In this document: positions 1,900-57,894 of the stretch, in pieces
How the letters are laid out: each line of letters starts with the position of its first letter
How positions within the stretch are numbered: position 1 is the stretch's first letter
Source: a virus
IMG/VR virus record: IMGVR_UViG_3300030104_003662
Location: 32,800-96,799 of that record
Length of the DNA stretch: 64,000 nucleotides
Reading direction: 5' to 3' (one strand)
Notes under the pieces: model-generated
What the model was told of the DNA's origin: nothing
What the model saw: only the letters and a program-made list of their open reading frames with translations
Database searches by the model: none
Translations under genes and position numbers: made by a program

Positions 1900-2184
1900 A
1901 TGGAGTCTAACGACAACCTTGACTTGAATGACATTGAGCGCTTGCAGAAGCGTGGTATTAGGCTTAACGAGTCTTATGGAGCATCGGTAAGAACTGATGA
2001 AGATAATCCACTTGCAGGTTTGACATTAAAGCAACGCAACCGTAATAAGAACGCTGGTGATGTGTTAAACATTGGTAGTGGGACTAGATGCAAGCACTGT
2101 GGTATGCTTTATTTCTGCTGGGTAGATACCTGTAGAACATGTGGTAAGCAAGTAGATTTTAATTTAGGGAGTAGAGAACAATGA
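1900..2184 (+). CDS. Small zinc-ribbon protein
   Basis: 94 residues. The C-terminal third carries CKHCGMLYFCWVDTCRTCG, a pair of CxxC knuckles typical of a zinc ribbon; the first 60 residues are polar and probably helical. The stop overlaps the next ATG (ATGA). A zinc-ribbon mini-protein inside a structural operon is unusual; it may be an assembly factor or minor head protein. Function unknown. Confidence 0.55.
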   Translation: MESNDNLDLNDIERLQKRGIRLNESYGASVRTDEDNPLAGLTLKQRNRNKNAGDVLNIGSGTRCKHCGMLYFCWVDTCRTCGKQVDFNLGSREQ

Positions 2185-2624
2185 CAGTTTATATTTTGAA
2201 ACAACCCAATCCACACCGTCAAAAGATATTAGTCGACGGTAAGCCAACTAGATTAGGAAGGTGGGCTAATAGAAAAGCAGCAAAGGCTGTTGGAGAACTT
2301 GGAGGAGACCGTGCAGGTCCTGACTGGCAAATGGCTCGTGATAATTTAATCCAAGAAGCGATGGCTAATCCACAAGCACACGGTATTGAGTTCTTAGATG
2401 GAGTGCCCGAAGGTGCCCAAGAACCACAAATGAATCAACCTAATGTCACAAGTGAAGAACAAACCGCAATAGAGCAAGGCTATCCACCCGAAGCAGCGGC
2501 ACCTGCTCCAAGCGAGCCTCCTCACGGAGGTCACCCTGACTTTATGTATCGCAAGTCGTTTGATGACGCTTGGTCTATTTTGAAACAACAGGGTTATTCA
2601 AGTGGTAACGCTTGGCTAAGGTGA
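2181..2624 (+). CDS. Basic/Pro-rich protein with C-terminal DDAWSILK motif
   Basis: 147 residues, coupled to the preceding gene by ATGA. The N-terminal 45 residues are basic (PHRQKILVDGKP, WANRKAAKAV), the middle is Pro/Glu-rich and likely disordered, and the C-terminus holds an amphipathic helix with FDDAWSILK followed by GYSSGNAWLR. A similar short helix opens the protein at 54,557. Such a layout (disordered body plus short docking helix) fits a scaffold or adaptor, which is inference only. Confidence 0.5.
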   Translation: MTVYILKQPNPHRQKILVDGKPTRLGRWANRKAAKAVGELGGDRAGPDWQMARDNLIQEAMANPQAHGIEFLDGVPEGAQEPQMNQPNVTSEEQTAIEQGYPPEAAAPAPSEPPHGGHPDFMYRKSFDDAWSILKQQGYSSGNAWLR

Positions 2625-24500: not shown

Positions 24501-27500
24501 CCAAGAACTATCCCACCCTCAATTAGCAGAGCAGCACCCTATGGAAATCCGCAACGCACTAATGTTACCAAATGAGGAAAAGCAATTCCAAAGCATGATG
24601 GTGATAGACGATACTGGTCAAGAGCACCGACTTGAAGGTGGCTCTCCTCTAGGTACCGTTATCATGGATTTCAGACATGTAAGTGACAGAGAAATAGAGG
24701 GGTTGGCACCTGCACTTGCTGGTACAGGTGTTTCACCTAATATGAAAATCAGATTACCTAACCCTGATGAAATACCGGGTAACATTATCGTTAGGCCCGG
24801 ATTCGACCGTATACAAGCGTATCAAAGTGAAACTATAGGCTCAGGAGGTCTACAGCACCCGTCACAGCCTGTGCAGCATATTACTGACATGTTCGATAAC
24901 AAGTATTCAGGTCCTAGGCTATGGCCTACTTGGGAAAATAACGGCTGGGAGCATTTAAGTCAAGACGGAGTAGATGTATCTTTGACCAAGAGCGATAATC
25001 GCTTGAAGTTCCCGGCTTCAACTGTAGAAGGGTGGCAAGACCATACTAGCAATTCTCCTCTCAAGACAGCATATGAGCCTCATGATAGAAACTTGTATTT
25101 CCATGTCACTCGTATGGGTGTATCTATGACTAACCGCGAGACATCTCAGTTGTTAACTTTCCAAAGTTATAGTGGTACAGAGATAAATGTAAACGCTACT
25201 CCCGAAGCAAGTGTATGGACCGACAGTAGTGAATTAAGCGGTGGTAGATATTTCCTAAGAGTGTACAATGAGACCACTAACGAAGGAGTATTGGCTTCTT
25301 ATACAGGCGTAGGTAGTGGTAAGTTCACAGGCGTAGTGTATAGCCCTGACTTTGCAAACTTCATAGCAGATACAGAGGCAGAAGGTCATATTCTAAAAGT
25401 TGTACCTTCTTACTATATGCCAGCGGGTAGCACTAGGTTCTTTGGCGCAAGACGACTAAGGGACCATAGTGAGTACAGCGGTGCTAGTCCTGATATGAAG
25501 ATAATTGATTGGTACACGCTATATGCTGCTTTACCTGCGAATACAGGTGCGACTACTAATCCTTCTATACCTTATAATCACATAATGACTCCTAAGATGA
25601 CACCTATGCCTATACCTCGTATGGGTCACCATTACATTAGCCCGACAATGGCACTCATGCCCGGACATTATGCTCACCCGGCCTACCAACGCTTGTACGA
25701 GTTAAACCAAAGTTGTAGGACTTCTAATAATGCACCTTTGATTGACAGTCTCATTGGTACCAACGAAGGTACTAGAACCAGTACAACTGCTACATCCACC
25801 ACTCATGAATCGGGCCGTGACCCTTACATTTACTTCTCCGGTCCAACCGCTGCATTCTCACCATCTGATATACACGGCGGGGCATTCACTCTATTGACTG
25901 AGACTAAAATCAAATACGAAGGTTACGGAGTTGCTGCATCTCTAGGTGCTGCTGGTACTACTAACGCAGCAGGTGGGCACGAACTTGTATTAGAAGCAGG
26001 TGGGACTTATACTCTCAACAACCATTTCCCTGACCCTATGGAGGTCGGAGCCTATCAGATTGTGATACAGCCGAATGTATTTGCTCAACAAATCAAAGGT
26101 TTCCACTTAAACCATAGTACTGAGAACAAAGCGCCTTCTGAAAGCGGCACTAAAGTTGTAGAATTAACAGGGCAGCAAGTGAATACTGTAATTGCCATTG
26201 AGCAAGATGTTGACACAAACGGCGCATACAGTCTGATTTTAGCAGATGCAATAATGGCAGATGTCAGAGGTTGTGAAGTAATAATAAACGAAGTTATACT
26301 TGACATTGAACCTGATTCGGGTAGCCATTTCACTAATTTACCTACTTTGGCACTTTACAACCCACTTGGAGTTCAAGAGACTAGTTCACCTTCGCTTACT
26401 CGTAGAAGCCTACCTTACAGACCGGGTATGTTTAGCAGTGCTACGCCCGGATATACACTTACCGTACCTTGGTGGGGTATATTGCACAAAGATGGAGCAG
26501 GTGCAAGTGGTGCTGACAAGTTTAGACACCTAGAATGGCATAAGCCTGATAATTACTACGAACTTTGCAGAGCATCATACGGTTGCGTAGGCGCACAGTT
26601 AACCCTAGGTGGTTATCCAACTTCTTTCCTAGACATTTACGAAGTCCATAAGCGCAACAGAAGTCTAAATCCTACTTGTGTAGTAATATCTAACAACGGC
26701 TCCTCTACAATAACAGTCGATGATAACTCTTTATTCCCAGTAGTACCTTATTATGGTGAAAAGTTAGAATACACCAAAGATGGTGTACGGTACACTGCTA
26801 CTTATGGAAACAGAACGGGTACTCTTGCTTATGCAACATTAGGTGCATCTGTTACATTCTCAACTGTCAGCGGTAGTGGTGAGTTTTGGGCTAACATTGC
26901 AACAGGCACTATCATAAAACTGACTAGACCTTATGACAACCATTCCTCTGACAAAGTATTCACTGATTCGTTATCTAGTATAATTACAAGGGCTTTGCCT
27001 CAAATATCTAACGGCAGTAGAGATACAAACAGCCTACATGTACCTGATGCATATTTATGCATGTGGCATCCGAATCTCGGCAGACCATTCACTTGGTATA
27101 GTGACACTGCTGACGGTGGTACTCGTAATTTCTATACCAAGGCTGGAGCAGCAGATACACCTTTGGATAAGAAGCCTTACAATATGCTACCTGAGCACTT
27201 TGAGACAATTCATTATCAAGATTTCAATTATGTAGCGAGCAAAGGTCCATTTGGATTCGCTATGAGTTGGATAGCGCCACCCGGAGGGGGCACCAGTCCT
27301 ACAAACGCTGCTGACGGCATAGTTCATACAGCCGCAGTCATTGACCTCGATACTAATCTGAAACACCAAGGTGGAGTAGAAAGTAGTACAGAAAGTAGTG
27401 GTGTTTTGATTAATCACCCGTCAGGTGCCAGTAATACCTACAGCGTTAACACTACTAGTGCTATTCCTGTAGACGCAGTTGACCCTACTACTAAGTTCCA

Positions 27501-29736
27501 AGTAGGTGATAGCGTATACAATTCCGCTGGAATCTTAGTCGGTGTACTTACGGCTGTTGACGGCAGTGCTCCATACGGAGTCACATTTGGTGGCGGAACA
27601 TTAGTGGTTTTGACAAACAACGAAGCACTCTATCTTAGTGAAAAATATAACTTCGCTGGCTTTTGGCCGGGCGGCTCTCATGGAGGAGGAGCAGTCAGTC
27701 GATTAGAGGCATATGGAGATTCTTTGATTGGTTGGGGCGGGGAGACATACGGTATGGACTGTGGTACATTTGATGACAATACAGGTATCAGAACCCGCAC
27801 ATACAATGAGGCTACTGTGGCTTCGCCTTATGCTCGTAACCATTGCTTTGGTTATAGATTCGGAGTTAGACAGGCGTATAATAGACCACGATGGGGGCAA
27901 TATGTCCGAGGCTGGCTAGAAGTCGCTAATTCTAACGCTCTACTAGGCTATTATCACGGCCCGCTTATACAGCAAGATAACAAGACTAACGGCTGGGACT
28001 ATGTAGGTAGCGATACTGCTTTGGGCGATGTCAGTTTTACCGCTTCTTATGTCGGCATCTTGGAAAGGTTAACACAAGTTAGTGCATTACTCAACCAAGA
28101 CCAAATTGGTCGCCAAGTAAGGTACAGCGATGGTCGCAGAATGACTCAACCGTTTGGCTGTGCTGTTAGAACTATCAGAAATGCATCTACTGTCAGAAGA
28201 GAATATCCGGGTGACAATGCCGGTAAAGATATATCCGAATTGGCTAATGCTCATCGCTACTATATGGTCGACTGGTGGGGCAATACTCGTGGAGAAGATG
28301 TCAGGCGCTTCCCTGTAAGAGGGTTTGGTATACGCCCTGCTTGGGACCCCGAAGACGCTTATACAGATACTAATATCGCTCACCGACCTGCTGCTAATGC
28401 GTTGTTTGGAGGGGATGGTAACGACCGTCAAAGTGGAAATGCTAACACCGCTAATAATGACGCTAGTAACATGGGAGTAGCGGATTGGTTCAACCCAGCC
28501 AGCGCCCTCAGAGTAGGTGACAGAGGAGATGGCAGAGGAGTCCGTTGGCCTACAGTATTCAACGAAAGCATGCTAATGGATGTCAGCGAAACACATGAGG
28601 CTACCGGACTAGTGTTGTCTCATAGCACAGCAGAGCCAGCCTTCGGCCAAGGTTTGGTGAGGCCAAGTAACTTGGCTTTGCAGTCAGGTGAGATTGAAAG
28701 AGGAATCAGTGCTAGATTAGATGTCGCTAGTGAAGATGGGTTGCTCAAGCCAAGCGCTTCTGTTGCAGAAGGTACTGAAACTATCACTGCTGATACTCGT
28801 TTGGCCGAGCCTGTTGGCAGAGACGATGTTAGAATAGGACTTGATGTAGATACAATAGGAGAACTGAACGAAGGCGTTAGTAGAGAGTATGTAATTATGT
28901 CAACTGAGGCTGTGAGTTTACACACTGACAGGGAAATAGGTCAGAGAACTACCGTAAGAGGGGCTATGGATGGTGCAAGTAGAACTTTGACTGACTTTGA
29001 CTTAACTGCCCTTAACTTTTCATCTAATCCAAAGGCAGGTATAACTAGGATTTCCAACGCGCATGCCTATTGGCCTTTGGGCGGTACATATGCTATGGAA
29101 TGGAGCAGATATGCAGGTGTACTTGATGTCAAGGGCTGGGGGCAAGCAGGGGCCTCTTCATCATCTAATCCTTATCAAAACGCCGCCCACGACTCTACTC
29201 TCCAAAATACAAATGCTACTGATTCTACAATTGATTTCCTTTATCGCCCTGCTCAAGTGCTGGATAACAAGCATGTACAACTATTCAGACCAGCGCCTGT
29301 GATAAGTGCTGACGATACTGACGGGGATGACACTATACAGGGCGGCTCTAACTTTTACAGAGCGACAGCCGGAGGTAAATACGGGCTATTCACAAGTGAT
29401 GCTCCGGGCGCTTTGACTGGCACTCCAAGTAGCCCACCGTATGCACCTGTTTACTCAATTACCCCTACTTCTAGTACAACTGTGCCTACAAGCCAAGGTC
29501 CTAAGATTCAGGGTGTAGATGTGACAGGATATAACAAGGCTGACATACGCTCACCTGTGGCGAGAGTAGTTATGACTGAAAATACACTTGAACACTTTAG
29601 AGCAGATGCAAGTCGTAAATCACCTGATGATGAAGAAGGCGATTTTAATGTACAGCCAAGATATAGCCAAACATTGCATCCAAAGGGTAGTGACGGTGAT
29701 GCATCTTATAATACAGGAGACCATAGCGGGGAGTGA
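12553..29736 (+). CDS. Giant 5,727-residue tail/adhesin protein
   Basis: A single uninterrupted frame of 17.2 kb, starting with ATG three bases after the previous stop. Residues 1-225 form a LamG-like domain (YALSFNGVTDGVLVPS, FTLETWIMPD, RRYLSMHINGDLVV, GTIEAIHLSRG). The rest is a long series of Gly/Thr/Ser/Asn-rich beta segments, including a duplicated ~70-residue unit (nt 17,145-17,345 and 17,824-18,035), two copies of the NNGSG module (nt 15,136-15,351 and 27,399-27,650) and GSGYS/GSGYQ repeats near nt 23,150-23,330 known from tail fibres. No catalytic motif or membrane segment stands out. It probably forms the main host-contact structure of the tail. Confidence 0.6.
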   Translation: MSIVIDPGYALSFNGVTDGVLVPSNQNVIHGKSDEGRKSLPAALHSFTLETWIMPDCGGIVYEYENMMRLTVGSPSSPAPATFEINLENVAAGTKSVHTISSAKPVNKINGDFAYWDGILFPQPALNMHNSYIATDAAVNDSTALNDGHRELLNVTVTFNRRYLSMHINGDLVVAKEFEENQQIVLSPSNMYLGGKGGEYRGTIEAIHLSRGEKKSGRSEFAPVKSDDTIGLWRFEEPIEPISLITTTPSISASTSASSSINIGVAAATALVNQFKNGVSVVVGNAINFTTQSPWSSQGSYKIKVHGATSSSDATIPKVPYNIIVNPLGYVSTTGKPTNKAPERLRLMAVDGDAGTITVESIHLDFASNASTGRRGALQAHDAGRFVVVTGDCLVDGGNGNVYQPQGSGTQFSHRQGQVCIDESNFENHGIMFSMSMAVDNTVHNKFAAFTTNPGAGFYLGHSGRHILNHVKSHPFMGYLPPASDLVVDKKLDASADVISASFSSQYSDIRGTVPLNSKISAFDSHEPVKLENTFYSTKVNTVVENGMSDISDTQRGLLAIGGTSFDPSAFALKALGADTVAENSKAQLVPSDESRIAILSVPSLASYDYAPFVQIHYNAICHNSVDFPTAAVSRIDSSFTSTATIIKLQSIKSFGKTGAVLPATSISIGGVVATTNPDITATLNHSDNKITFSANTDSGFQAVDTTGAIVKLAMDGPCLMVSKTLPDVSTIVTGSTSILDLIHTDMASADLDILSPGGIVEFKAPGMFPFKSGDLEGDTEEGTVAETTLDTTLCPDNYLPLASTDPPQTTPQGIAVSDSNLSTKSSQFSKIIIKTATYEDTLEETADIIRQSSQYDRQKTGVLVNNGSGYSATATSITVDAVDARTKFSTGQSLYKIDGTVLGTITSVAETAIGVSAGITASLVDNEELYNQSINIGTGTTNQSTSVHEIFDIIEHQMSGDIVTLTVQPSDRRRFTQLARLKIDEDSSNHLSVEYLMSRGRVLSFNEDDNGNSNLLAYGIISDIAGASVSAKGDGAPDSHIVKEIMPGAPVVTMMLGGPGQGAINTKETWEPSPTARLAWNTRRDCVTEVSAVDTSGRTVTTLPLNNRSTDLQSWGTYCFPKVGRIYLELPRTDVNEPIRFASAEYSSKTGVLFNFASGTTHLGSGKFVLADGSEAVGFAAWVSATGISTGHKLHVDDKFLEESMCNDGTTVNDRLFQTLDSVQHDYQLGTQYASTRALVEIPLFEEFFFDNPDKGIFPGPDNSMKIHVDATHTASNWAPNPVGRRHDEIATQDPEIFGAFSYSISSDSHRSGTKITAPFTDTSAPILIHVEDASIFPIPDAAPVTVAGVDGSARYRRAFLPSGEWVLYTARDTSANTITAASASTAGGNWAMSKNFVKEFAVGAQLTPAPGYQDMNYTPIADNPLLKSAGYEGRRSFYYDRSNVMTQGGNVDYGMRQYVSAVEFRAGPRVNPHLDRIQSGRAKGVVQAWASGAPTLLYMKDASLFPDNIAGVDDYSGYRYRLAWAPSDFSLTGCSYNNAKLITHSSSTLVAVGMAVSGDGIPVGATVEAVISNTTFDLSVATTGGSLSSKTLTITSNGVITHAHYNIKSDNLLTLTQRDDAFQPASGDEVTLVDMHASPTTIYPEVKEGVFLNKSWAYPYAPGGLRDGDTVWMNMHYTNPHAIEGLFAKSRGTLNEGEVWTGFNGGGGAFAANPRNSIPMENFLIGNSCTETAQNFVQHVNKTIELNYEALGLYAEFTVGGASYNNDPTITHTSSTAIVVGMGVSGSGIPDGATVATVTDATHFELSEATTGGSKSSQTLTFTSNTPAPTVAYLDPYQSTEEHARVLLYDVAHDREFIAFQDLWMQVQSSADATKIGAAPAHTAGAIVHDDGNSGSWIDVAAGFPSESKYLAPTNGSDFMEAAYSHKSTWNASTGTILSPHAPDVGTKYATNGAMPRTNDAVINSDDAILKHKQIDKDSREASTFFDTPDGTRAIPAFLALKGIRSSTSDLSGHEEARLNELDHWTQMDFVRRLTVDFGEVALRDGVTDIEAAAREVVRLVNQAGAKNGRTHARRPADQYLGESEKFDLSSPGVKAGGFSMGFDPSAAHINADFAATGSTHDPAPFWDIKRGFSSHDRGTHMGYVRAHLGRVVLDSDGNKGYSIVIHSTIPGAEGRNFCTWLDNSRAQTPYRPQYLIGHGGRFRNYWCQPDEMTGENMHPAPMPINRFGRPFAPITTLKEYLPPEETLASFSNNLSIGPEIVIGSTQSADTFRENASGRNSNTVIDESFETKSPSSTLVDGLRTGTSAKSRINFGGMTQAGIPGWSPDAGKWGMGRDGEDSRYQSVYGNASNAATAMLNSTIYDTDNKVGYIPKDDMKPRNIGDGNIYGIRLVDHRGDNHTVRMIYKQYGKSFANDLTIVPPTIDEEIVIHFDDRDVAQGGFTIGKHMVGTGEVCGEKSGGTAKPYKGNLWNNYPSPAVGIHVTGNKATDTGVTMDVTFTAPYSTGDTLTHPDVLGYLGFPESGVLQLTDDAGTSGDQGITIHYTSRSHYDHDGDTGASNKHYFYGCTGGRALTTNEGMLISPRINFTSVLTDEVIAAAVEFAMAMPDPTDDSIAATSFDCTGMFAPDGKTLGEWGVSPTAIRVKASSKSKTPLSKLFQVSRNKDWGLVEGASSDAVVSSKHTGGLSDVERDAGTRLDVGYIPETVLHITTRYKGTNANTATPILVDNQNNPVDISTWQRNLRGDNYTSVAGDHIIPKVDSPMILKTTDDGTLITTASSTYLYSICVPGSDHAQAWGERFTIWWGSEEYAEVASTPGAAVETKLTYGAGTGVSANFASFCHDSDDEVLMRNGDVKNGMKTDGIRRAGSKMSSPFLYFRGGRDSPDHWVPLYFGGGFSGVVMDINDGTQNDYGDFYTHPYAGGPTGSAGLQNVGEIAGSYALLDTNAMLAMFPGTPYLDDHKGKNNPPLFNQDSLLPFDMAKGANTKFTGLTYTDGSNAVHANLPSPIVLRFAHPHARYSATGNTADQTIYMVFGPGQAFPHNSAAFEPQGANIVTSGNGYSAVPIYTDGSTVSLETFLPNSLTNGDSTVAGLINHASGAVIGHLPRTTFFQINKLSAFNYDMNWEPTKGFPSVAVSGSTTFAQTYDRAFYYEGSPFTFGVALPPSAHPFSHIFTDSNGNALETSYHPATKKSSVIWHMDGGYHPGGHFLDNHVNINPKHAVEGGRLATGSTNKHNVSAFRPCGLLAKAYLTQYGGSPDNQANDDNVVLIDATRVQNAEELGAVISASINTFPGKDPLKAIGGTFLPSMQNAHKQDRYGWVQLDIASFEPANKLVVTNNASLETLPKYGWVRISDGNTAGYAPYTDITTTATLTVAAQGDPHGMTEKQKVTITAADGTVRIYVLTDTNAGGVATGTVLVSNSDTGAGTAGDSLTGGIAVGINFTSAIQHDYLEQIKTAIEHANGHAGKITVTETSTSIFTLTNAVAGISGNTTITEDVANLTIAGFNGNTGSIFLGRSVNSTVPSVINIVVPGAGYSAATVSTSGGSGTGLTLALTVGGSGEITGVSIATAGSGYQAGDLITAVGGDGAGRIDVAGCAKSTSFINPTNDREVTATSGFKAYVWAKSGTHRLNNDNTVTTRDHITQVHYNGLIDAIDRTKPVGAVGWAGEAYSYMNSYTGTQVGSGVYPAGLGAWHPSLGFNPYGAAETCLAASSPVGTGDTATATFSDYCVNGLSSRHLIAITHESELPLIAKADRDGVTCAGDWLMTKETSNIINAGTIQWDTSKVHNKSRYLGPATGGPRVEAQVHSDFVRPTVAGDYPATSAAVAANKWHDTIASGKMVQANACLNPTGDLFWDESVVKGSNFHEDFGTYGKECIGVSGSDDYLNPGASSTAMPHNGLFGYYNTRSAARNFSAEHVVWKRMDGGSLTMPAANARGLGAIPWVRRKASTGQYLLEGEKVLGNVRFSFESTNAAMFPIIQAQELSHPQLAEQHPMEIRNALMLPNEEKQFQSMMVIDDTGQEHRLEGGSPLGTVIMDFRHVSDREIEGLAPALAGTGVSPNMKIRLPNPDEIPGNIIVRPGFDRIQAYQSETIGSGGLQHPSQPVQHITDMFDNKYSGPRLWPTWENNGWEHLSQDGVDVSLTKSDNRLKFPASTVEGWQDHTSNSPLKTAYEPHDRNLYFHVTRMGVSMTNRETSQLLTFQSYSGTEINVNATPEASVWTDSSELSGGRYFLRVYNETTNEGVLASYTGVGSGKFTGVVYSPDFANFIADTEAEGHILKVVPSYYMPAGSTRFFGARRLRDHSEYSGASPDMKIIDWYTLYAALPANTGATTNPSIPYNHIMTPKMTPMPIPRMGHHYISPTMALMPGHYAHPAYQRLYELNQSCRTSNNAPLIDSLIGTNEGTRTSTTATSTTHESGRDPYIYFSGPTAAFSPSDIHGGAFTLLTETKIKYEGYGVAASLGAAGTTNAAGGHELVLEAGGTYTLNNHFPDPMEVGAYQIVIQPNVFAQQIKGFHLNHSTENKAPSESGTKVVELTGQQVNTVIAIEQDVDTNGAYSLILADAIMADVRGCEVIINEVILDIEPDSGSHFTNLPTLALYNPLGVQETSSPSLTRRSLPYRPGMFSSATPGYTLTVPWWGILHKDGAGASGADKFRHLEWHKPDNYYELCRASYGCVGAQLTLGGYPTSFLDIYEVHKRNRSLNPTCVVISNNGSSTITVDDNSLFPVVPYYGEKLEYTKDGVRYTATYGNRTGTLAYATLGASVTFSTVSGSGEFWANIATGTIIKLTRPYDNHSSDKVFTDSLSSIITRALPQISNGSRDTNSLHVPDAYLCMWHPNLGRPFTWYSDTADGGTRNFYTKAGAADTPLDKKPYNMLPEHFETIHYQDFNYVASKGPFGFAMSWIAPPGGGTSPTNAADGIVHTAAVIDLDTNLKHQGGVESSTESSGVLINHPSGASNTYSVNTTSAIPVDAVDPTTKFQVGDSVYNSAGILVGVLTAVDGSAPYGVTFGGGTLVVLTNNEALYLSEKYNFAGFWPGGSHGGGAVSRLEAYGDSLIGWGGETYGMDCGTFDDNTGIRTRTYNEATVASPYARNHCFGYRFGVRQAYNRPRWGQYVRGWLEVANSNALLGYYHGPLIQQDNKTNGWDYVGSDTALGDVSFTASYVGILERLTQVSALLNQDQIGRQVRYSDGRRMTQPFGCAVRTIRNASTVRREYPGDNAGKDISELANAHRYYMVDWWGNTRGEDVRRFPVRGFGIRPAWDPEDAYTDTNIAHRPAANALFGGDGNDRQSGNANTANNDASNMGVADWFNPASALRVGDRGDGRGVRWPTVFNESMLMDVSETHEATGLVLSHSTAEPAFGQGLVRPSNLALQSGEIERGISARLDVASEDGLLKPSASVAEGTETITADTRLAEPVGRDDVRIGLDVDTIGELNEGVSREYVIMSTEAVSLHTDREIGQRTTVRGAMDGASRTLTDFDLTALNFSSNPKAGITRISNAHAYWPLGGTYAMEWSRYAGVLDVKGWGQAGASSSSNPYQNAAHDSTLQNTNATDSTIDFLYRPAQVLDNKHVQLFRPAPVISADDTDGDDTIQGGSNFYRATAGGKYGLFTSDAPGALTGTPSSPPYAPVYSITPTSSTTVPTSQGPKIQGVDVTGYNKADIRSPVARVVMTENTLEHFRADASRKSPDDEEGDFNVQPRYSQTLHPKGSDGDASYNTGDHSGE
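17145..18035 (+). repeat. Duplicated ~70-residue unit inside the giant tail gene
   Basis: Two units, nt 17,145-17,345 and 17,824-18,035, encode the same pattern: SYNN, ITHSSST or ITHTSST, VGMAVSGDGIP or VGMGVSGSGIP, ATTGGS, and a final LTITSN or LTFTSN strand. They are an internal beta-domain duplication about 680 bases apart. Confidence 0.6.
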
Positions 29737-40911: not shown

Positions 40912-41955
40912 TCACCAATACCTCTTAGGTCTCGCAGCGCCTGATGCGAACTCAAGGTTCCAATTCATCGCTTTGAATATATTTTTCATTTTAGATTTAA
41001 CCAATTTGTCGACCATCTTTTCATAATCTAATTCAAACCCTTCTAAATCAGTCTCGTTTCTATAGGCAACTATGTCAGCGGGCGGTAAGCCTTGGGGCAC
41101 ACTAGTGACATATACCCAGTTTACACTATCTCCCTCTCCGAAGTAATCAGTCCTACTCTTAGCAATATGTGCGTTGTAATACCTTGCACCCTTTACTCCG
41201 GGCACACCTGCGTTTTTGGCATACGCATTGAGTGCTTTTTGAATACGAGTGGTGCCAGCGACTTCTTCTATTTCGACTGTACCCTTGTCTATTCTTTTGG
41301 CTAATGGTCTAACTATATCAGTCACAGTATCTTCGTCTGCACCTGTACAAATAGCCAACAGTACATCATTCTCTAAGTTTTTAGAAATGGGAGCCAGCGT
41401 GCTGATTTTACCCCATCGTGCGCTCTTGACTTTACCCTCGTCTTCGGGAGGCCATGAGCATATACCATAGTACAGGTTCTTACCGCCTACAATCCAGTAG
41501 GGCATGTATGCTTCAAACTCTACAGCCAAATGACTGGCGTTCAGAGTGCTTTGGGCTTTTTCAGTCAAGTGCTTGGCTAGTGCCGGTGCCTCATCAAATG
41601 GTACGCTTACGAATGCTGAATCAGTGTGACCGTACAAGGCTTCGTAACCCTGTGCTTGGGACTCCTCCATTAGAAACTTGATAGCCTCTCTGCCACAAGA
41701 AGTAATAGCGTTCGCTATGTCAAAGTCACACCATCCCCAATAAGGACTCGCAACGCAGCCATATAGACTCGCCATGACGCGCTTGGTAGCAAGTTGCATT
41801 GTATTCCAACCGGCCTTTTCTATAGGGTCTGTTGCTTCTTTCATCTTCTGCTTGTACTCATCACGAAGTTCAAACATTTCCTCTACAATCTGAGGCAAAA
41901 GTCCCTTCTTGGATTGGTCCCAGCGAGAGCCGTCAGGTAGTGTGTGTATAGTCAT
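40912..41955 (-). CDS. polB: DNA polymerase B, C-terminal half (fingers, motif C, thumb)
   Basis: 347 residues. Motif B is present as QLATKRVMASLYG (Lys58) and motif C as LYGHTDSAFV, where the usual YGDTDS has His110 in place of the first Asp while the second (Asp112) is kept. The C-terminus looks like a thumb. It begins with ATGA overlapping the N-terminal-half gene and has GGTGAT a few bases before, so it is made as a separate, coupled polypeptide. The two halves must assemble to give an active polymerase. Confidence 0.85.
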   Translation of the reverse strand: MTIHTLPDGSRWDQSKKGLLPQIVEEMFELRDEYKQKMKEATDPIEKAGWNTMQLATKRVMASLYGCVASPYWGWCDFDIANAITSCGREAIKFLMEESQAQGYEALYGHTDSAFVSVPFDEAPALAKHLTEKAQSTLNASHLAVEFEAYMPYWIVGGKNLYYGICSWPPEDEGKVKSARWGKISTLAPISKNLENDVLLAICTGADEDTVTDIVRPLAKRIDKGTVEIEEVAGTTRIQKALNAYAKNAGVPGVKGARYYNAHIAKSRTDYFGEGDSVNWVYVTSVPQGLPPADIVAYRNETDLEGFELDYEKMVDKLVKSKMKNIFKAMNWNLEFASGAARPKRYW

Positions 41956-43271
41956 CGGACATCACCTTTTACTTGTGTAGTCCAGCAGAGGTTATGCGAG
42001 AGGATTAGCGAGGGGTACAGTCCCTTGTAATCTACACAGGCTACACTCTCGTATCGACCCGGTGAGGGCGGAGGTATGAATGCACCTTCGTACTCCCTTT
42101 TCTCCTGATTAGACTTAGTCGGGGCTTTCAAGTGAGTGCGTCTACTAAGTAGGCCACGAGCGAACCTCGTTACATTGTGACATGAAGAGAAGCGTACACC
42201 GCATAATCTTTGTAAGGATAAGAAGAAGTTTAGAACATGGTTGTCTTCATCTATTCGTTTGAGTAGAATAGTATCTTGCATACAGTAGTCGACATAGTCA
42301 TCAAACCGCTCGGCCCATCCAGTGAATACATCCATGTCGAACTTACCTCCCATGTTACAGGCTTTGGCTATGGTGTCTAGTTTTCTATTCTTCAACTGAG
42401 GCTGACCGCTATCTTTCCATACACGCTCAAACCCACTACCGCTTCTGATAGGAGCGGCTGTGTCAAAGCATAGCCTACCTATAATCGGCTGGGCCACATA
42501 GTCATAGCCCTTTGAGTCAGATTTGTTAGGTGGTCGCAGTACACGGTTTAGAGGACTTAGTTGCCTAAACTCAGGCAAACGCCTGATAAGATGCGGGAGG
42601 TCCGCCCACATTATTGCATGTGCCACGAATATGTCAGGATTACATTCATCCATATAGTTCATAAAAGCCTGATGCATTTCCCTCTCTGAGCCATATTCGT
42701 ACCGCTCATAAGTGAACTTAACAGGAACTTCGTTGACTTCATATTCAACCTCACGCTCTGTTGTCTCCCACTTATTCGCTAGTCCCTTTGGGTCATTATC
42801 TTGCCAGCAAAATGCTATGTTACGGTTGTTGTAATTGTCGATTACTGCCATAACTGTAGTCTCGTCAGTCTTGGGGTCCCATTCTAAATCGAAGTGCCAT
42901 ACCCTTGGTTTCCATTGAGGCATCTCCTCTATCTCATCTATAAGGTACCTATCTGCTAGGCTAAAGTCGCCCTCCCAAGTCACTCTGAACTCATGGCACA
43001 TCTGCCTAATGTCGCTAGTTCTAAACGCATACACTTTGACTAACTTTTCATCAGTACGCAGTGCTACTGCTGTATCATTCCAGTCTATTTCTGAACCGGG
43101 GTAGCGACCTAGTATGCGATTAACAACACGAGGTGGAGTAGATTCTTTAATCCAAAAATAGGGCTTGAAGTCAGAGATGTGCTCTTCTATGAGAGCGCCC
43201 TCTGAGTCTCGCCATCTCTTGTAGATATGGTCAGGACCTTCGGGGTCAGGTCTGTATGTGTCGATTATCAC
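41952..43271 (-). CDS. polB: DNA polymerase B, N-terminal half (exonuclease and motif A)
   Basis: 439 residues from a GTG overlapping the previous stop (GTGA) behind GGAGATGA. The exonuclease domain has HFDLEWDP (Asp128, Glu130), a second motif near DIFVAHAIMWADLPHL and YCMQDTILL. Near the end is polymerase motif A, VDYKGLYPSLI (Asp414). The chain then stops 25 residues later, between motifs A and B. The break is not a frameshift: the second half has its own start and ribosome site. Split PolB genes are known in Methanothermobacter, so this is a second case of a natural split, in a virus. Confidence 0.87.
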   Translation of the reverse strand: MIIDTYRPDPEGPDHIYKRWRDSEGALIEEHISDFKPYFWIKESTPPRVVNRILGRYPGSEIDWNDTAVALRTDEKLVKVYAFRTSDIRQMCHEFRVTWEGDFSLADRYLIDEIEEMPQWKPRVWHFDLEWDPKTDETTVMAVIDNYNNRNIAFCWQDNDPKGLANKWETTEREVEYEVNEVPVKFTYERYEYGSEREMHQAFMNYMDECNPDIFVAHAIMWADLPHLIRRLPEFRQLSPLNRVLRPPNKSDSKGYDYVAQPIIGRLCFDTAAPIRSGSGFERVWKDSGQPQLKNRKLDTIAKACNMGGKFDMDVFTGWAERFDDYVDYCMQDTILLKRIDEDNHVLNFFLSLQRLCGVRFSSCHNVTRFARGLLSRRTHLKAPTKSNQEKREYEGAFIPPPSPGRYESVACVDYKGLYPSLILSHNLCWTTQVKGDVR

Positions 43272-47333: not shown

Positions 47334-48266
47334 CTATTTCTCCTCCATATTTCTCTTTAGTTTTGCTACAAAATACTCAACAAATGCCAAGTCATCATCC
47401 GGCCACTGTGTAGCCAGCATGACGAACTCGCCATATGTGAGCATGAATGTGTGCCAGTCACTCTCACTCTCCATGAGAGGCTTGGCACGCTGTCTAAGGC
47501 CCTTGAGCACACCTAGACGGCTGTAACCGCTTTCCATCGAATTGACGAGCAGGGCGGTAACCTGCGGGAAATCAGAACCCATTAGATTTAGGGCTGCTTT
47601 GTTAAGTGAGTTAGTGTCTCGCTTGAGGTAATTCACAAGTGCATCCGGTTCATTGCGTATACTCTCGATTACATCAATTGCTTTTCTAAGACTACCGTTA
47701 CAGTTCTGTAAAAGCATAGATAGATGATTGTTCCATTCTGCGGGTCTGCCCTCCGCATTGATGATAGTACCCAGTCTACCTGTGTCTGTATGGTGTATAG
47801 GCTTGAACTCGTATGTCAAGCACCTATCCCTAATCGCAGCGTGTATAGGGCTGATGTCATTTGCTGTAAGTATGAATATAGCAGACTTGTGACTCTCCTC
47901 CATGATTTGACGGAGGGCTTTCTGCGCTGCCGAAGTTAGATTGTCGGCCTCATCCAGTACGAATACACGGCGCTTCACGCCTATGCCCTTTTGCTTGCTA
48001 AGGCGCTTAAGTTCACGAACATAATCTATACCTCTGTCATCACTTGCATTGGTTACTACAAAGTTCATAGGGTCAAAGAACTCGCCCATCATATCTTTAG
48101 CAAGAGCAAATGCTGCACTGGTCTTACCCACACCGGGTGGACCTACGAATAGAAGATTAGAGGGGCATGCCTCTAGGGTCCATTCACTGGCACCAGCAGT
48201 GAACGACTCACAGCCTACTAACTCACTCAGGGTAGTAGGTCGGTACTTCTCTCTCCAATTCATCAC
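47334..48266 (-). CDS. rfcS: Replication factor C small subunit (clamp loader)
   Basis: 310 residues, with all family motifs: WREKYRP (4-10), VGPPGVGKTS (Walker A, 41-50), TNASDDRGID, VFVLDEADNL (DEAD box, 101-110), then AAQKALRQIME and AIRDRC in place of the SRC arginine-finger box. The C-terminal helical collar is shorter than in cellular RFC. It lies directly behind one of the four shared promoters; the TATA box is so close to the ATG that the transcript may be leaderless. No RFC large subunit is seen, so it may load the clamp as a homopentamer. Confidence 0.92.
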   Translation of the reverse strand: MMNWREKYRPTTLSELVGCESFTAGASEWTLEACPSNLLFVGPPGVGKTSAAFALAKDMMGEFFDPMNFVVTNASDDRGIDYVRELKRLSKQKGIGVKRRVFVLDEADNLTSAAQKALRQIMEESHKSAIFILTANDISPIHAAIRDRCLTYEFKPIHHTDTGRLGTIINAEGRPAEWNNHLSMLLQNCNGSLRKAIDVIESIRNEPDALVNYLKRDTNSLNKAALNLMGSDFPQVTALLVNSMESGYSRLGVLKGLRQRAKPLMESESDWHTFMLTYGEFVMLATQWPDDDLAFVEYFVAKLKRNMEEK

Positions 48267-48270
48267 TTCA

Positions 48271-48309
48271 CTATCCTTTCTTGTTTATTTATAACCGGAA
48301 CTTCTCAGT
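48271..48309 (-). promoter_or_regulatory. Shared promoter copy 1, upstream of rfcS
   Basis: 39-base block present four times in the window. On the - strand it reads ACTGA-RRAG then TTCCGGTTATAAATAAACAA. TTATAAATA is a good archaeal TATA box and the preceding TTCCGG may be the BRE. TATA centre is about 21 bases before the rfcS ATG, which predicts start at or near the ATG. The first TGA serves as the stop of the upstream gene. Confidence 0.65.
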
Positions 48310-52609: not shown

Positions 52610-52925
52610 AGTTCTCCCTCTCATTTTTCATCCAAAGCATCCAATCGCAACATTTTGTAGCCATCAACATGGCATAGTTAGTCACGAGTACGACAGTGCT
52701 CTCCGGTAATGTCTCGTGACATTGGGGGCACTTATCAAAGTGATTGTTAGCAGGGGTTATCATGATTACCTCTTGGTACTCATCTCCCCCGCTCTCTTTC
52801 CTCACATGCTCAGGTACAGGTATAGTGGAGCCGAGCAAAGGTATGCGCTCTCCTTTACGCAACCAATTACCTTCGCTGTCAATGTCCTCCGGCTTCATCC
52901 ACTCTCCTGTAAAATCTCTGCTCAA
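52590..52925 (-). CDS. Small zinc-knuckle protein
   Basis: 111 residues, ATGA-coupled to the DUF932-like gene. It carries KCPQCHETL and TKCCDWML, a possible zinc knuckle, and aromatic residues near the end. Overlaps the next gene by 20 bases. Function unknown. Confidence 0.5.
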   Translation of the reverse strand: MSRDFTGEWMKPEDIDSEGNWLRKGERIPLLGSTIPVPEHVRKESGGDEYQEVIMITPANNHFDKCPQCHETLPESTVVLVTNYAMLMATKCCDWMLWMKNERENYGNEYA

Positions 52926-54418
52926 TGAAGCACCTCTGAAAACAGAGGTACTTTCTCTAGTTGGTCTTCGATAGATACGCCGTTGACCGACTTGGTTGTA
53001 ATGTCTCCGAGTATCTTATGCACCTTTTGCAAGCGGTCAGTGAAAGTGTTGAAGTTCAAGGTGGAGCCAGTCAGCACTGCCTTTCCATCAGTCCAAGTAG
53101 GCTTGTGAGTAATAGCACCGGTCAAGACATTGTAGACATGGTAAAGAGAGCCTCTGTCCTCATTGTTGACTGCTACCCAAGGTTCGCTAGGCTGAGTCCA
53201 GCCCTGTCCCATGAGTCTCCACATGTGACCACGAGTAATTGAAGTGACTTCGCCAGCGTCGTTGCGCTTAAGTGTAGGCTTAGCAATCAACCCTGCACGC
53301 TCGCAAATCGTCATTATTTTCTCAAATGTATTTCTGTTAACTCCGACATCTTTCATGGTTTCTGCCACAATGATTTCCTTTGCAGCCATTTCCATAACTT
53401 CATTTATCTTATCAGCCAGTCCTTCAAAGTCATATTGACCGAGTACGCCATTAGTGTGTTTGAGGTTAACCAAGGTAGCACGGTCGCCCATGACTTGCCC
53501 GTTCGTACACACTAGTCGCTCACCTACGGCCTGTACCTTAAATGCAGACGAGCCGTCTAAACTATTCATGATGGTGATACCTACTCGGTATTCACCGTTG
53601 TTTCTGAAACCTCGCCTTTGCCATTTCTCCCCAAGGCTTCTACCTGCCTTTTCCCAATCTACACTACTACTGACATCGCAGAAACAAGCGGCTGCTTTGC
53701 CCTCGTTCCATGCTAATACTTGAGCGGGCCATCCATTCTTTGCGGCCAAGTCAAGTACAGGTCCGAATCCCTTACGATAAGGCATCGGATAATAAGAAGC
53801 ACTAAAGGTACCGAGGTGTGCGCCCGCAGGTCTTTTCTCACTTTTGTAAAGTGGGTTGAATATATGATAAGCAGTAGGCTCACCCTTTTCATTGTTAACT
53901 CTCGCTATAGTCGCTTGCCTACCGTCATCTGAGTCAGAGTGCATCACGAAGGCTGGCTTACGCACTGGGTCAAAGTCCCAGTCTATACTTGCCTTTTCCT
54001 CACGACCACCTGCATACAACATACCGTCGAATGGGCCTGTGGCTTCATTGACGGTCACGCCATCTACTGTAATCGAAGGTGCATCTGCACTAACCCACAT
54101 GGGTACTTCATCATCTAATTCATCTTGCTCGTCTATTGGTAATTTTTCATTGTTTTCCATTGCATTCACTATTCCTATTTGTTCTTCTGTTATGTGCAGA
54201 GGTGCGTTGTGCATAAGTGTATTACTAAGTTTTTCACCAAGTTCACTTTCGTCTGCCCGTACCAGTACTGCTATTCGCCCGTTGCTTATCTTGTCAAGGC
54301 GTGCTACGCAAGTTCTTGGTACTATTACGCTAGTTACACCGTGTGTAGATGGGTACTCCATCTCCACAGCACTAGCACTACTGCTCGTTACTTTTCCTAT
54401 TACTACTATGTCATCCAT
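52922..54418 (-). CDS. DUF932-like phage/plasmid protein
   Basis: 498 residues from ATG 54,418 with AAGGAG eight bases upstream; an ATG at 54,439 would add seven residues without a ribosome site. The core (FGPVLDLAAKNGWPAQVLAWNEG, YRVGITIMNSLDGSSAFKV, ERLVCTNGQVMGDRA) matches DUF932-family proteins, including the CTN motif. This family is frequent in phages and plasmids; its function is unknown but it is often highly expressed. The N-terminal 110 residues are an extra beta domain. Driven by shared promoter copy 2. Confidence 0.65.
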   Translation of the reverse strand: MDDIVVIGKVTSSSASAVEMEYPSTHGVTSVIVPRTCVARLDKISNGRIAVLVRADESELGEKLSNTLMHNAPLHITEEQIGIVNAMENNEKLPIDEQDELDDEVPMWVSADAPSITVDGVTVNEATGPFDGMLYAGGREEKASIDWDFDPVRKPAFVMHSDSDDGRQATIARVNNEKGEPTAYHIFNPLYKSEKRPAGAHLGTFSASYYPMPYRKGFGPVLDLAAKNGWPAQVLAWNEGKAAACFCDVSSSVDWEKAGRSLGEKWQRRGFRNNGEYRVGITIMNSLDGSSAFKVQAVGERLVCTNGQVMGDRATLVNLKHTNGVLGQYDFEGLADKINEVMEMAAKEIIVAETMKDVGVNRNTFEKIMTICERAGLIAKPTLKRNDAGEVTSITRGHMWRLMGQGWTQPSEPWVAVNNEDRGSLYHVYNVLTGAITHKPTWTDGKAVLTGSTLNFNTFTDRLQKVHKILGDITTKSVNGVSIEDQLEKVPLFSEVLH

Positions 54419-54470
54419 GTATATGTCTCCTTGTCTCATCCGTTTTGCTGGTTTCCTAAAAAGGTATTTA

Positions 54471-54509
54471 CTATCTTTTCTTGTTTATTTATAACCGGAA
54501 CTCCTCAGT
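54471..54509 (-). promoter_or_regulatory. Shared promoter copy 2, upstream of DUF932-like gene
   Basis: Same 39-base block as at 48,271, including TTCCGGTTATAAATAAACAA and ACTGAGGAG. Here no gene ends at the ACTGA part, so that part is conserved for its own sake. TATA centre lies about 69 bases before the ATG used, leaving a leader of about 40 bases. The opposite strand reads TTTATTTATAA, so it might also serve the divergent gene at 54,557. Confidence 0.65.
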
Positions 54510-54556
54510 GGCCTTTTTCAAGCAATCACTAAATGACAGAAAGGGATGGGGTTAAC

Positions 54557-55345
54557 ATGGGCGGAGCATTTGAACAAGCATGGTTGCTTCTCAAGGCTGC
54601 ATTTCAACCCAGTGAAGGGCGCTTCATTGGTTCAGGTATGAATCAGTCTGTATATGGTCAAGCGGGTAACCCTGATGTAGTCAAGGTAGGTGACCTATCG
54701 CAGAATCCTAGGCAATTAGACGACATGTATTACCATCATTTGCTTAGTCAATTACCTAGTCTACCTATGTTCCCCGGCCAAAGTCCGATAGAACAAACCG
54801 CTGAATTACCAAGTGAAGTTAACACCGCTAGCCTACCTATGTTATCCACCCAACCTAGAGTCGATGGGTTGGAAAGAAGCGGTGCTGGCCTGTACGCCGA
54901 TACAGTAAGAGGTAGGAAACTAGCCGATGCACTCTATGACATAGGCGACCAAGGTAAGTTAATAGAAGCGATGGGCCTTTCTGATTTGAAGAGGGAGAAT
55001 TGGGGTGCTACTAAGCAGGGTATACCTGAACAAATAGTCACAGGGGAGCCTAGTCAGAGATTAGTACAAGTACACGACCCCTCTTTCTACTCTCACCTAG
55101 ATGCATCGCAAGAGGCTGCCGAAGGTAGAGGCCCTGCTCCTCGTAAGTTGGGTAGAGATTACAACATACCCGCAGGTACATTAGAAGAGTTCGCTCGTAC
55201 AGTAGACCGTAACCCATTTGATAAATATACCGAGCCAATCGAAGAATCATTCTACGATTTCAGTAAAAATCCCGAAGAGGGCCTTGAGCGACTCAACCAA
55301 AGGCAAACGGCCATTGATGATATGATGGCTTCACTCGGACTCTGA
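54557..55345 (+). CDS. Small protein-kinase-like protein (only + strand gene of the right arm)
   Basis: 262 residues from ATG 54,557 (ATG 54,533 would add eight). Kinase landmarks occur in order: glycine-rich loop FIGSGMNQSVYG (23-34), strand with Lys43 in VVKVGD, catalytic-loop-like LSDLKRENWG (Asp143, Lys145, Asn148) and VQVHDPSF (Asp174) at the DFG place. Residues 1-13 (GAFEQAWLLLK) form the short helix also seen at the end of the protein at 2,181. The N-C lobe spacing is compact. It may phosphorylate host proteins or small molecules, or be a pseudo-kinase; activity is not provable here. Confidence 0.5.
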   Translation: MGGAFEQAWLLLKAAFQPSEGRFIGSGMNQSVYGQAGNPDVVKVGDLSQNPRQLDDMYYHHLLSQLPSLPMFPGQSPIEQTAELPSEVNTASLPMLSTQPRVDGLERSGAGLYADTVRGRKLADALYDIGDQGKLIEAMGLSDLKRENWGATKQGIPEQIVTGEPSQRLVQVHDPSFYSHLDASQEAAEGRGPAPRKLGRDYNIPAGTLEEFARTVDRNPFDKYTEPIEESFYDFSKNPEEGLERLNQRQTAIDDMMASLGL

Positions 55346-55639
55346 TAAGTCAGTTGGCTTGCCATAATCACGGACTTTGTATTCAGCGACTAGGTGACTT
55401 ATGCCGGGTTCATTTGCAAACTTTACCATCGTACCTACATCGGACCAATCCTCCTTAGTAGTATAGGGTAGATTCTTTTGTACAACTTTCCAAATGAACT
55501 CTGCAACAAAGTGCTTAAGTGCTTTCTCGTCATCACCATAAATCCGTATTATCTCATCAAGCATTTTCAACATACCGTGTAAGTTATCATACCACATGTC
55601 GTTATCGGTATCTCCTACTAAATTGTAATCTATTCCCAT
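55331..55639 (-). CDS. Small protein of unknown function
   Basis: 102 residues, acidic N-terminus, helices with aromatic residues (FVAEFIWKVV), ends TDLSESE. Its 3' end overlaps the convergent kinase-like gene by 15 bases. No recognisable domain. Confidence 0.45.
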   Translation of the reverse strand: MGIDYNLVGDTDNDMWYDNLHGMLKMLDEIIRIYGDDEKALKHFVAEFIWKVVQKNLPYTTKEDWSDVGTMVKFANEPGISHLVAEYKVRDYGKPTDLSESE

Positions 55640-55891
55640 CTATTCCTCTCCTTTCAATATCCAGTTGTCAGGTTTCTGACTGACTCTTAAAAATCTCTTC
55701 TGCGAATCTGTTCTTAACAAAGTGCTGATTGCTCTTGACGGTATGTTATCCATGCTGTAGATACTCTTACCCTCCCTCTCCAGTAAATTAAGCACCCTGT
55801 CCTTTATCGCATGGTGCGGTAGTGGCGATTCAGCCACCAATAGTATTTGCTCTGCATAGTTTCTAAACCTGTCTTTGTTAGTTAATCCCAT
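55640..55891 (-). CDS. Winged-helix-like small protein
   Basis: 83 residues from ATG 55,891 overlapping the SNF2 stop (TGATG) behind GAGGTG. Sequence AEQILLVAESPLPHHAIKDRVLNLLE, then RAISTLLRTDSQKRFLRV, fits the HARE-HTH/winged-helix pattern (helix, 'h.I...V', helix, then strand with F-V). Probably DNA-binding or an adaptor for the SNF2 helicase. Inferred from pattern. Confidence 0.5.
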   Translation of the reverse strand: MGLTNKDRFRNYAEQILLVAESPLPHHAIKDRVLNLLEREGKSIYSMDNIPSRAISTLLRTDSQKRFLRVSQKPDNWILKGEE

Positions 55892-57894
55892 CATACCACC
55901 TCGTATTTCCAAGCACGCTCTTGCTTAAGTTTTCTAACCAGTTCCTTGACAAGACCCTTGCGTTCCTCAACATCTCCACCGTCTAGTACAGATTTAACCA
56001 CTTGCCTTTTCTGTTCAACTACACGGTCAAAGTGTTCGTCTATCGTACCGGCGCATGATATGTACACAGCGTGTACATGTTGGCTCTCCTGTCCTATTCT
56101 ATAGACTCGGTCCTCTGCCTGTTCTTCGTCAGTCGGAACCCATTCGCGCTCGATGAATAGAACTGTGTCTGCCGCTGTAAGTGTGATGCCCTCCTTGGCT
56201 GCAATTGTATTGCAGATGAGTACATCTATGTGACCCGCTTGGAAATCATCAACCAACTCTTGCCTCCTCTTAGAAGAAGTGTCACCATTGATGTAATTTA
56301 TTCGCTTGGTATTTCCATACTGCTCTAGTGCTTTCAGTTGCTCGCCTATCATTACCATGACATCACGATGATGAGTGAATACAACCAGCGGCATTTTCGT
56401 TTGGTCACGATACTGCCCTATCCAGTCGATGGCATACTTGACTTTGATTCTCCCGCATATATGTCTCAGGTCATTGAGCATGTTCAGCATCATGCCCTTT
56501 GGTAGCGACTCTCCGTTTAGGTAGTGGTCGTCTATTCTTCTGTCCCACTCCTCTTGCGCTATGTCATAAGGCTCCCTTTCAGACTTAGACAAATGTATAG
56601 GTAAGAAGGTACGAGTCTTAGGTGGTAGGTCAGGTAGTACTTCGCTCTTGAGTCTACGAATACATAAGTCACGAATCCTTTCATTGAGTTCCTTAGTGTG
56701 ACTTGCACCTGTGAAATCCCAGCCGAAGCCATTGTTCCAAGGGTCGCAGTAACGCTGTGCGAAGTTCCAAAAGTTAGGGAATTGCTCAGGGCGCATCAAG
56801 TTCAGAGTGTTGAAGAACTCAGAGGGGCGGCTGCTAATAGCAGTGCCACTAAGTGCAATCACCTTGGGTGAATCCTGTGCTACTAACAGAGTCGCCTGTG
56901 TCCGTTTTGCTCTACTGTTCTTTAGGTAATGTACTTCATCAAGTACAACCAACTTAGGACCTAGTGCAATTAGTTCGTCTTGCTTCTTCACCATCAAGTC
57001 ATAATTGATTATGATAATGTCAGCCGTTTCTATCGTTTCCTTACCCTTGGTAATGACCGTCACACTCTCAGTAGGTAACCACTTACTTACTTCTTTTTTC
57101 CAGTTGAACTTGACATTTGCAGGGCTGACTACAAGCATCGGCCTGTCCTTTGGGTTAATCGCAGCGTAACCTATGGTGGATATTGTCTTGCCAATTCCCA
57201 TCTCATCACCAATCAAACACATACCATTACTTGCTTCTGCAAACGCAACCGCTACCTTTTGGAAAGGGTACAGTTCCATGTCTTCGGGCAAGCAGTCATC
57301 CAGTCTATAGGATATTGACTCTACTCGCTCATCGGTTAATTCGGCAGCGGAACTCATCTCCACTCGCTCTATACTATCTGCGACATCAGCATTGATGTCC
57401 TCGTTACTAAGGATAGCCTGTGCCAAAGGTGGGTAGGAGTCCTCAATAAGTGAATGTAATGTGCGTGCTTGTGCGACAGGTATCGACCAGCACTTCTTGT
57501 CAGCATGAAACTTACGACCGCCTATGCTACGCACAGCAAGGCGTACAGTTTCACGCAGTTCGCTGTCTACAATGTAGGGCCAGTGCAAGTGTAACCTAGT
57601 ACGCTTAACCTCAGTCCAACACTCTGATTTGTTTTGCTGGTTTTCGGGGAGGGTTCCGTTGTGTTTGTGAATATACTCTGTATCATAGTTCAACTCTTCA
57701 AGTACCTGACATGCCTCGTCAATGACATACTTCTTGTTCTCTATGCTCCACAATTTTCTATCCGCATCCCACTTGAACTTAGGGAAACCCAGTGTCGACT
57801 TGAGCAGTTCATTGGTGTCAGGGTCATAACTGTACTTGAGGCCGAGCCTTTCGCCGTAGTCATCATTGTACAACTCTATGCTAATTCGCTTCAT
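55891..57894 (-). CDS. SNF2-family DNA translocase (SMARCAL1-like)
   Basis: 667 residues. The N-terminal 150 residues contain two HARP-like units (FKWDADRKLWSI at 40-51, KFHADKKCWSIP at 128-139). The helicase core has ELYPFQKVAVAF, GDEMGIGKTIST (Walker A, 229-240), VVLDEVHYLKN (DEVH, 317-326), ALSGTAISSRP and the motif VI-like DRVYRIGQES. HARP plus SNF2 is the architecture of annealing helicases that rewind RPA-coated DNA at stalled forks. GAGGTGACAG precedes the ATG. It likely protects viral forks. Confidence 0.85.
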   Translation of the reverse strand: MKRISIELYNDDYGERLGLKYSYDPDTNELLKSTLGFPKFKWDADRKLWSIENKKYVIDEACQVLEELNYDTEYIHKHNGTLPENQQNKSECWTEVKRTRLHLHWPYIVDSELRETVRLAVRSIGGRKFHADKKCWSIPVAQARTLHSLIEDSYPPLAQAILSNEDINADVADSIERVEMSSAAELTDERVESISYRLDDCLPEDMELYPFQKVAVAFAEASNGMCLIGDEMGIGKTISTIGYAAINPKDRPMLVVSPANVKFNWKKEVSKWLPTESVTVITKGKETIETADIIIINYDLMVKKQDELIALGPKLVVLDEVHYLKNSRAKRTQATLLVAQDSPKVIALSGTAISSRPSEFFNTLNLMRPEQFPNFWNFAQRYCDPWNNGFGWDFTGASHTKELNERIRDLCIRRLKSEVLPDLPPKTRTFLPIHLSKSEREPYDIAQEEWDRRIDDHYLNGESLPKGMMLNMLNDLRHICGRIKVKYAIDWIGQYRDQTKMPLVVFTHHRDVMVMIGEQLKALEQYGNTKRINYINGDTSSKRRQELVDDFQAGHIDVLICNTIAAKEGITLTAADTVLFIEREWVPTDEEQAEDRVYRIGQESQHVHAVYISCAGTIDEHFDRVVEQKRQVVKSVLDGGDVEERKGLVKELVRKLKQERAWKYEVV

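Follow-up and report, generated by a model that had tools for sequence, protein, structure and literature searches.

The internal proteins of phage T4 carry a common N-terminal propeptide of 10–19 residues by which they reach the core of the prohead and which the prohead protease then cuts away, with the mature parts diverging, and host-directed proteins such as the ADP-ribosyltransferase (ART) Alt enter the cell together with them (PMC9026906). Packaging in the form of polyvalent proteins has also been proposed for a range of domains that includes kinases, ARTs and GNATs, and the kinases in question belong to the serine/threonine/tyrosine kinase superfamily, combining a reduced C-lobe and an intact active site with a conserved Gln in the last N-lobe strand and a Glu N-terminal to strand 2; stand-alone forms are known, and packaging and injection have been predicted for them (PMC5512222). 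As for viruses of archaea, the thermosome-bearing Marine Group II virus clade combines a family B polymerase (PolB), an archaeal-type chaperonin, RFC and a tailed-virus head module (PMC5332604).

In the window (i.e., the whole stretch of 64,000 nucleotides analysed here, taken from a virus record of 96.8 kb), a small kinase-like protein was found to begin with a short peptide tag that recurs, in these viruses, on many proteins with no relation to one another. This tag, with the kinase as one of its clients, is the broader and newer of the two findings. Judged by its genes, the source virus looks like a magrovirus, i.e., a virus of Marine Group II archaea: it carries a group II chaperonin, a family B polymerase, an RFC-like clamp loader subunit and a primase-like protein, as well as a head module of S78 protease, HK97/SU10-type capsid protein, portal and terminase, so that PolB, group II chaperonin, RFC and HK97-type head module are all shared with the described magroviruses. 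In contrast, kinase, effector and packaging terms are absent from the published magrovirus description (PMC5332604), and a literature search for the tag residues did not find the peptide in print. The PolB of the window (40912–43271) is divided between two neighbouring ORFs of 439 and 347 aa, which match consecutive stretches of the PF00136 profile, and a single 5727-aa ORF on the structural strand (12553–29736) takes up more than a quarter of the window. The features under discussion are collected in Table 1.

Table 1. Window coordinates of the kinase-like gene, its motifs, its surroundings and a C-terminally tagged ORF.
Feature	Position	Strand	Basis or remark
262-aa kinase-like protein with N-terminal tag	54557..55345	+	translation, homologue alignment, AlphaFold2, Foldseek
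Tag MGGAFEQAWLLLK, predicted short helix (residues 3–13)	54557..54595	+	common to many unrelated proteins of these viruses
Gly-rich loop GSGMNQSVY, residues 25–33	54629..54655	+	G27 in 16/16, G25 in 15/16
β3 Lys43	54683..54685	+	invariant in alignment; within model strand 40–46
Gln99 in β5 (94–100)	54851..54853	+	invariant; alignment and model
Catalytic-loop equivalent D143-L-K-R-E-N148	54983..55000	+	Asp and Asn invariant; no HR preceding Asp
Asp174, DFG-Asp equivalent	55076..55078	+	invariant; D-P in 14/16
Divergent neighbour, DUF932-domain protein (505 aa)	52922..54439	-	domain match and synteny
27-bp repeated promoter-like element, copy beside kinase	54484..54510	-	4 copies in window, 0 expected
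Convergent neighbour, small ORF closing leftward operon	55331..55639	-	ORF map
147-aa ORF in structural region with C-terminal tag copy SFDDAWSILK (2556–2585)	2181..2624	+	tag scan

The kinase-like protein and its gene

A sequence-only reading of this DNA had proposed a small, separately expressed virus kinase, with the kinase motifs in order within 262 residues of a lone plus-strand gene, and conservation, structure and synteny all supported this part of it. GSGMNQSVYG, VVK43V, D143LKREN148 and HD174P could be read in the translation. The start at 54557 was preferred over an alternative in-frame ATG at 54533 (giving 270 aa), since the homologue alignments all begin at the Met at 54557. The ORF map fits a lone gene, with minus-strand genes on both sides in the window as well as in two related loci (L001 and L002), and the leftward operon convergent to the kinase includes an SNF2-type helicase (55891–57894). 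The kinase gene has the strand of the terminase-portal-protease-capsid module and lies ca. 56 kb from the prohead protease in the window's virus. Within a set of 11 records (G000–G010), a full-length kinase occurs in five (G000, G001, G008, G009 and G010), always as a single gene apart from the cluster of tagged genes described below.

Binding of ATP/Mg and transfer depend on four residues, namely the β3 Lys, the catalytic Asp and Asn, and the Asp of DFG. The family of the window protein was assembled as 17 tagged sequences from viral contigs (the window protein included), and an alignment of 16 divergent sequences, with 23–80% identity to the window protein, showed G27, K43, Q99, D143, N148 and D174 to be invariant (16/16). 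Such invariance across divergent homologues indicates that the kinase motifs are not there by chance. The αC Glu, on the other hand, is not conserved (position 56 being D in 10, E in two, S in two, H in one and N in one of the 16 sequences), and the His-Arg of HRD and the Phe-Gly of DFG are replaced in the family. When the window protein and its family were compared by sequence with Pfam, PHROGs and the PDB, no match to a kinase rose above noise, tblastn of isolated phages gave no match, and a kinase profile search of genome_contigs gave no relative; the assignment therefore rests on the invariant residues together with the structure.

Modelling with AlphaFold2 on the 16-sequence alignment (pLDDT 89.3, pTM 0.88) yielded the strands and helices in kinase order. 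The kinase N-lobe, whose absence would have refuted the sequence-only reading, was present in the model (β1 22–26, β2 31–34, β3 40–46, αC 52–64, β4 76–78 and β5 94–100), and D174 was followed by ca. 85 mostly helical residues, i.e., by a C-lobe that is much reduced yet present. Foldseek matches were nearly all kinases, both in the PDB (best E 1.1e-4, to RSK2, with AceK and PRPK among the top) and in a viral library (best E 6.3e-6, to a phage protein kinase). The TM-scores were low (0.3–0.5, and only about 0.3 to solved kinases), pointing to a reduced and diverged kinase. From its residues and its model, the gene product is thus a kinase-like protein, and most likely a minimal protein kinase.

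Its catalytic activity is nevertheless uncertain because of the unconserved αC Glu, the replaced His-Arg and Phe-Gly, and TM-scores of only about 0.3. A pseudokinase, binding a nucleotide or a partner without phosphate transfer, would agree with these replacements (D-P taking the place of DFG) and with the reduced C-lobe, but the invariance of Lys43, Asp143, Asn148 and Asp174 in 16 divergent sequences speaks against it, and we regard it as a possibility somewhat on the unlikely side. This question is separate from that of packaging.

Compared with the kinases of polyvalent proteins, the window kinase shares the active-site residues, the reduced C-lobe and the Gln in β5 (Q99), but it lacks the Glu N-terminal to strand 2 (with N/W/Y/F and Q/R found there), retains C-terminal helices, and is a separate short tagged gene of an archaeal virus rather than a domain of a giant bacterial (pro)phage polypeptide. 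With the T7-type gene 0.7 kinases it has in common that it is a virus-encoded kinase fold, phage protein kinases being the top matches in the viral structure library; no sequence similarity to them was detected, however, and the window kinase differs in being tagged and on the late strand.

A tag shared by otherwise dissimilar proteins

The tag has a consensus of ca. 12 residues (M-x-[AP]-F-[DE]-x-A-W-x-L-[LV]-K) and is also found at the N-termini of other, otherwise dissimilar proteins of the window's virus (MRSFEQAWQLLK, MGAFDNAWSVLK, MQPIDAAWNLLK, MKPIDAAWNLLK, MKPLEQAWDLLK and MNPMDLAWIVLK). Degenerate DNA searches of viral contigs for the tag yielded 41 stretches, and at least 120 with a looser pattern. 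Together, at least 415 distinct N-terminally tagged ORFs were found in at least 146 loci, with up to 13 per locus. After removal of the first 20 residues, the tagged bodies among the matches listed fell into 175 clusters, 63 of which had two or more members; 175 is an upper figure, since part of the clusters may be fragmentary or remotely related to others. Conservation among the tagged proteins ends at the Lys of the tag, and the kinase profile picked up other proteins by their tag only (E 1e-4 to 1e-3).

The residue preferences within the tag (A in 169/175, W in 170/175 and F in 156/175) were sharper than the pattern demanded, although these motif positions were themselves searched for. As a control, the reversed peptide was found zero times against 379 for the tag overall, and zero times against 17 on DNA that had been fetched without the tag, while the reversed DNA pattern gave no match in any of the 11 records. 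An ATG-plus-tag DNA pattern had no exact match in genome_contigs (one genome per species for 84,980 prokaryote species).

The majority of the tagged proteins belong to no known family. Those that could be placed include further kinase-like proteins, and one such family, located inside the tag cluster (L061, L149 and L156), could be aligned with the window family along the entire kinase core even without the tag (E 7e-4). Another, with invariant K70, Q123, D159, N164 and D178, matched the window family at E 2.5e-6 with the tag and weakly (E 0.016) without it, and is linked to that family mainly via the tag and the N-lobe. Several tagged YHGT families are ADP-ribosyltransferase-like; one set matched KptA/Tpt1 best (E 9e-4) and DarT weakly by sequence, and was matched to KptA by fold as well (E 5e-4, on a moderate model with a pLDDT of 73.5). 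A tagged match to Acetyltransf_1 (GNAT) was of borderline significance (E 0.0096), and other tagged proteins were a D12-type DNA methyltransferase, GP88, DUF6321 and basic small proteins.

The tagged genes have a set position relative to the head genes. An S78 protease was found in 11/11 records, and the tags of any one record share one strand, which is that of the prohead protease. In eight of the nine records with a tag group (G000, G002–G007 and G009), this group precedes the protease by ca. 24–32 kb on the same strand, the distances for G003 and G004 allowing for wrap-around. In G001, which is close to G000, there is just one such tag, at the contig end and 22.6 kb upstream of the protease, and G008 and G010 have one or two tags only, with no tag group upstream of the protease. 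In the window's virus, the order runs from the tag cluster over DUF5872/DUF6321 basic proteins, terminase, portal and a 1817-aa protein to the protease and the capsid protein. The capsid-protein N-termini were checked for a cleavage motif, and SELLKAD was nearly invariant; as most of this N-terminal region is equally conserved, it is uninformative in this respect.

Two further ORFs were noted in head regions. The one between terminase and portal at L007:4534-5841 resembles by eye a LAGLIDADG-type homing endonuclease (AGFLDADGYITI), with no such Pfam match, and the one at L006:11192-11914, near the head module, is small GTPase-like (GPPMTGKTT, VANKAD), again with no Pfam match.

Expression of the kinase gene and fate of the tagged proteins

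The kinase had been proposed to be an early gene next to a promoter copy. The element exists, and its sequence (TTTATTTATAANCGGAACTNNTCAGTG) starts at 48284, 54484, 61501 and 63001 in the window. These copies sit 18–45 bp upstream of the minus-strand ORF starts at 48266, 54439, 61480 and 62966, and TTATAAATAAAC of the element reads on the minus strand. Since 4/4 copies just precede leftward ORF starts, the element would primarily be a leftward promoter, most likely a virus-specific promoter of leftward genes, and the copy beside the kinase is best taken to drive the leftward DUF932-protein operon rather than the kinase. A plus-oriented TTTATAA lies ca. 60–70 bp before the kinase ATG, overlaps this copy and is kept in 11/15 homologues, which makes a promoter of its own within the same spacer plausible; the kinase may thus have its own TATA box there. 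Early transcription, in contrast, is not supported and fits poorly with the late/structural strand of the gene and with a tag that is common to the cluster upstream of the head module, both of which point to a protein made late and delivered within the particle. The proposed role in host takeover or anti-defence stays plausible via injection, but not via early transcription.

Like the capsid targeting sequence of T4 IPI–IPIII, the tag is a short shared N-terminal peptide on proteins whose bodies diverge, the virus has a prohead protease, and the tagged genes are associated with head genes. It differs in being unrelated in sequence, in having many more clients and in occurring as internal and C-terminal copies. 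By analogy, this suggests that the tagged enzymes are loaded into the particle and delivered to the host much as the T4 internal proteins are. Since the tag follows the logic of the T4 targeting sequence with the cargo types of polyvalent proteins, virion loading and injection would be the best explanation, and we consider it probable, by a modest preference, that the kinase is made late, that its tag brings it into the prohead, and that it enters the next Marine Group II cell along with the DNA. The tag helix would present F, A, W, L and L on one face, followed by Lys, and dock to a core or scaffold component of the prohead; the S78-type protease may then remove the tag, and the kinase, once in the next archaeal cell, would phosphorylate host proteins. 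The same tag would recruit the ADP-ribosyltransferases, the other kinase-like proteins, the acetyltransferase, the DNA methyltransferase and the basic small proteins.

Several observations count against packaging, i.e., the kinase gene stands alone in the replication arm outside the tag cluster, some tags are internal or C-terminal, and a scan of HVTV-1 (a related tailed virus of haloarchaea that shares a capsid-protein clade with the magroviruses) found no tag. The position of the kinase gene and the internal and C-terminal copies, which are often seen with interaction motifs, would suit a short amphipathic helical peptide with an invariant Lys that serves localisation or partner binding inside the cell (at a virus factory, host RNA polymerase, clamp or chaperonin), the tagged proteins acting where they are made. 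We hold this main rival to packaging to be rather unlikely, since the tag cluster has a fixed position on the late strand, 5′ of the head genes, and the cargo types (ART, kinase, GNAT and methyltransferase) are those for which packaging has been predicted in phages.

A kinase that is expressed early and, in the manner of T7 gene 0.7, turns off the host or its defences or reprograms them, with no link to the virion, would agree with the kinase-like fold, with a phage protein kinase as the top viral structural match and with the TATA-like box in the divergent spacer. The late strand, the shared tag and the leftward direction of all four 27-bp elements make it improbable. Some tagged genes also share upstream coding-frame strings (e.g., FLSCSLMGLDM and FIFNSHRAHM), as would be expected if the tag were a by-product of gene-cassette exchange, i.e., of a swapped conserved 5′ module (promoter, start and first codons) with no function in the protein. 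However, the codons at the conserved tag residues vary widely (TTT/TTC 204/164 and AAA/AAG 241/174) while the residues are kept, indicating selection on the tag peptide, and, besides a C-terminal copy, there are five in-frame tags within a single 829-aa ORF, so that a mere exchange by-product appears very improbable indeed.

Beyond the kinase, packaging by the tag would lend itself to a broader reading, which we see as evenly poised: a single dozen-residue tag could be the general address label by which magroviruses load a large, fast-changing arsenal of host-modifying enzymes (kinases, ADP-ribosyltransferases, acetyltransferases and others) into their particles. This would be an archaeal route of effector delivery that arose independently of the T4 sequence and takes the place of giant polyvalent proteins. 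Should the tag indeed signal packaging, protein N-termini alone would suffice to list the effectors carried in the virions of these uncultured archaeal viruses, giving a catalogue of candidate host-takeover or counter-defence enzymes that are mostly without a known family. It would also provide a ready capsid-loading peptide and make the injection cargo of archaeal tailed viruses directly testable.

Finally, two ORFs of the L006 locus stand out. In the 829-aa ORF (G000:C1:4998-7487), the internal tags are of the GEPMDLAWRLLK type, start at residues 44, 238, 438, 577 and 766, and separate a GNAT-like segment, a ParB-like segment and a basic C-terminus; the ORF is possibly a cleavable polyprotein of tagged cargo. 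An HMG-CoA lyase-like gene (G000:C1:3266-4120, PF00682 E 7e-24) lies in the tag cluster and is itself untagged, and is possibly a metabolic gene.
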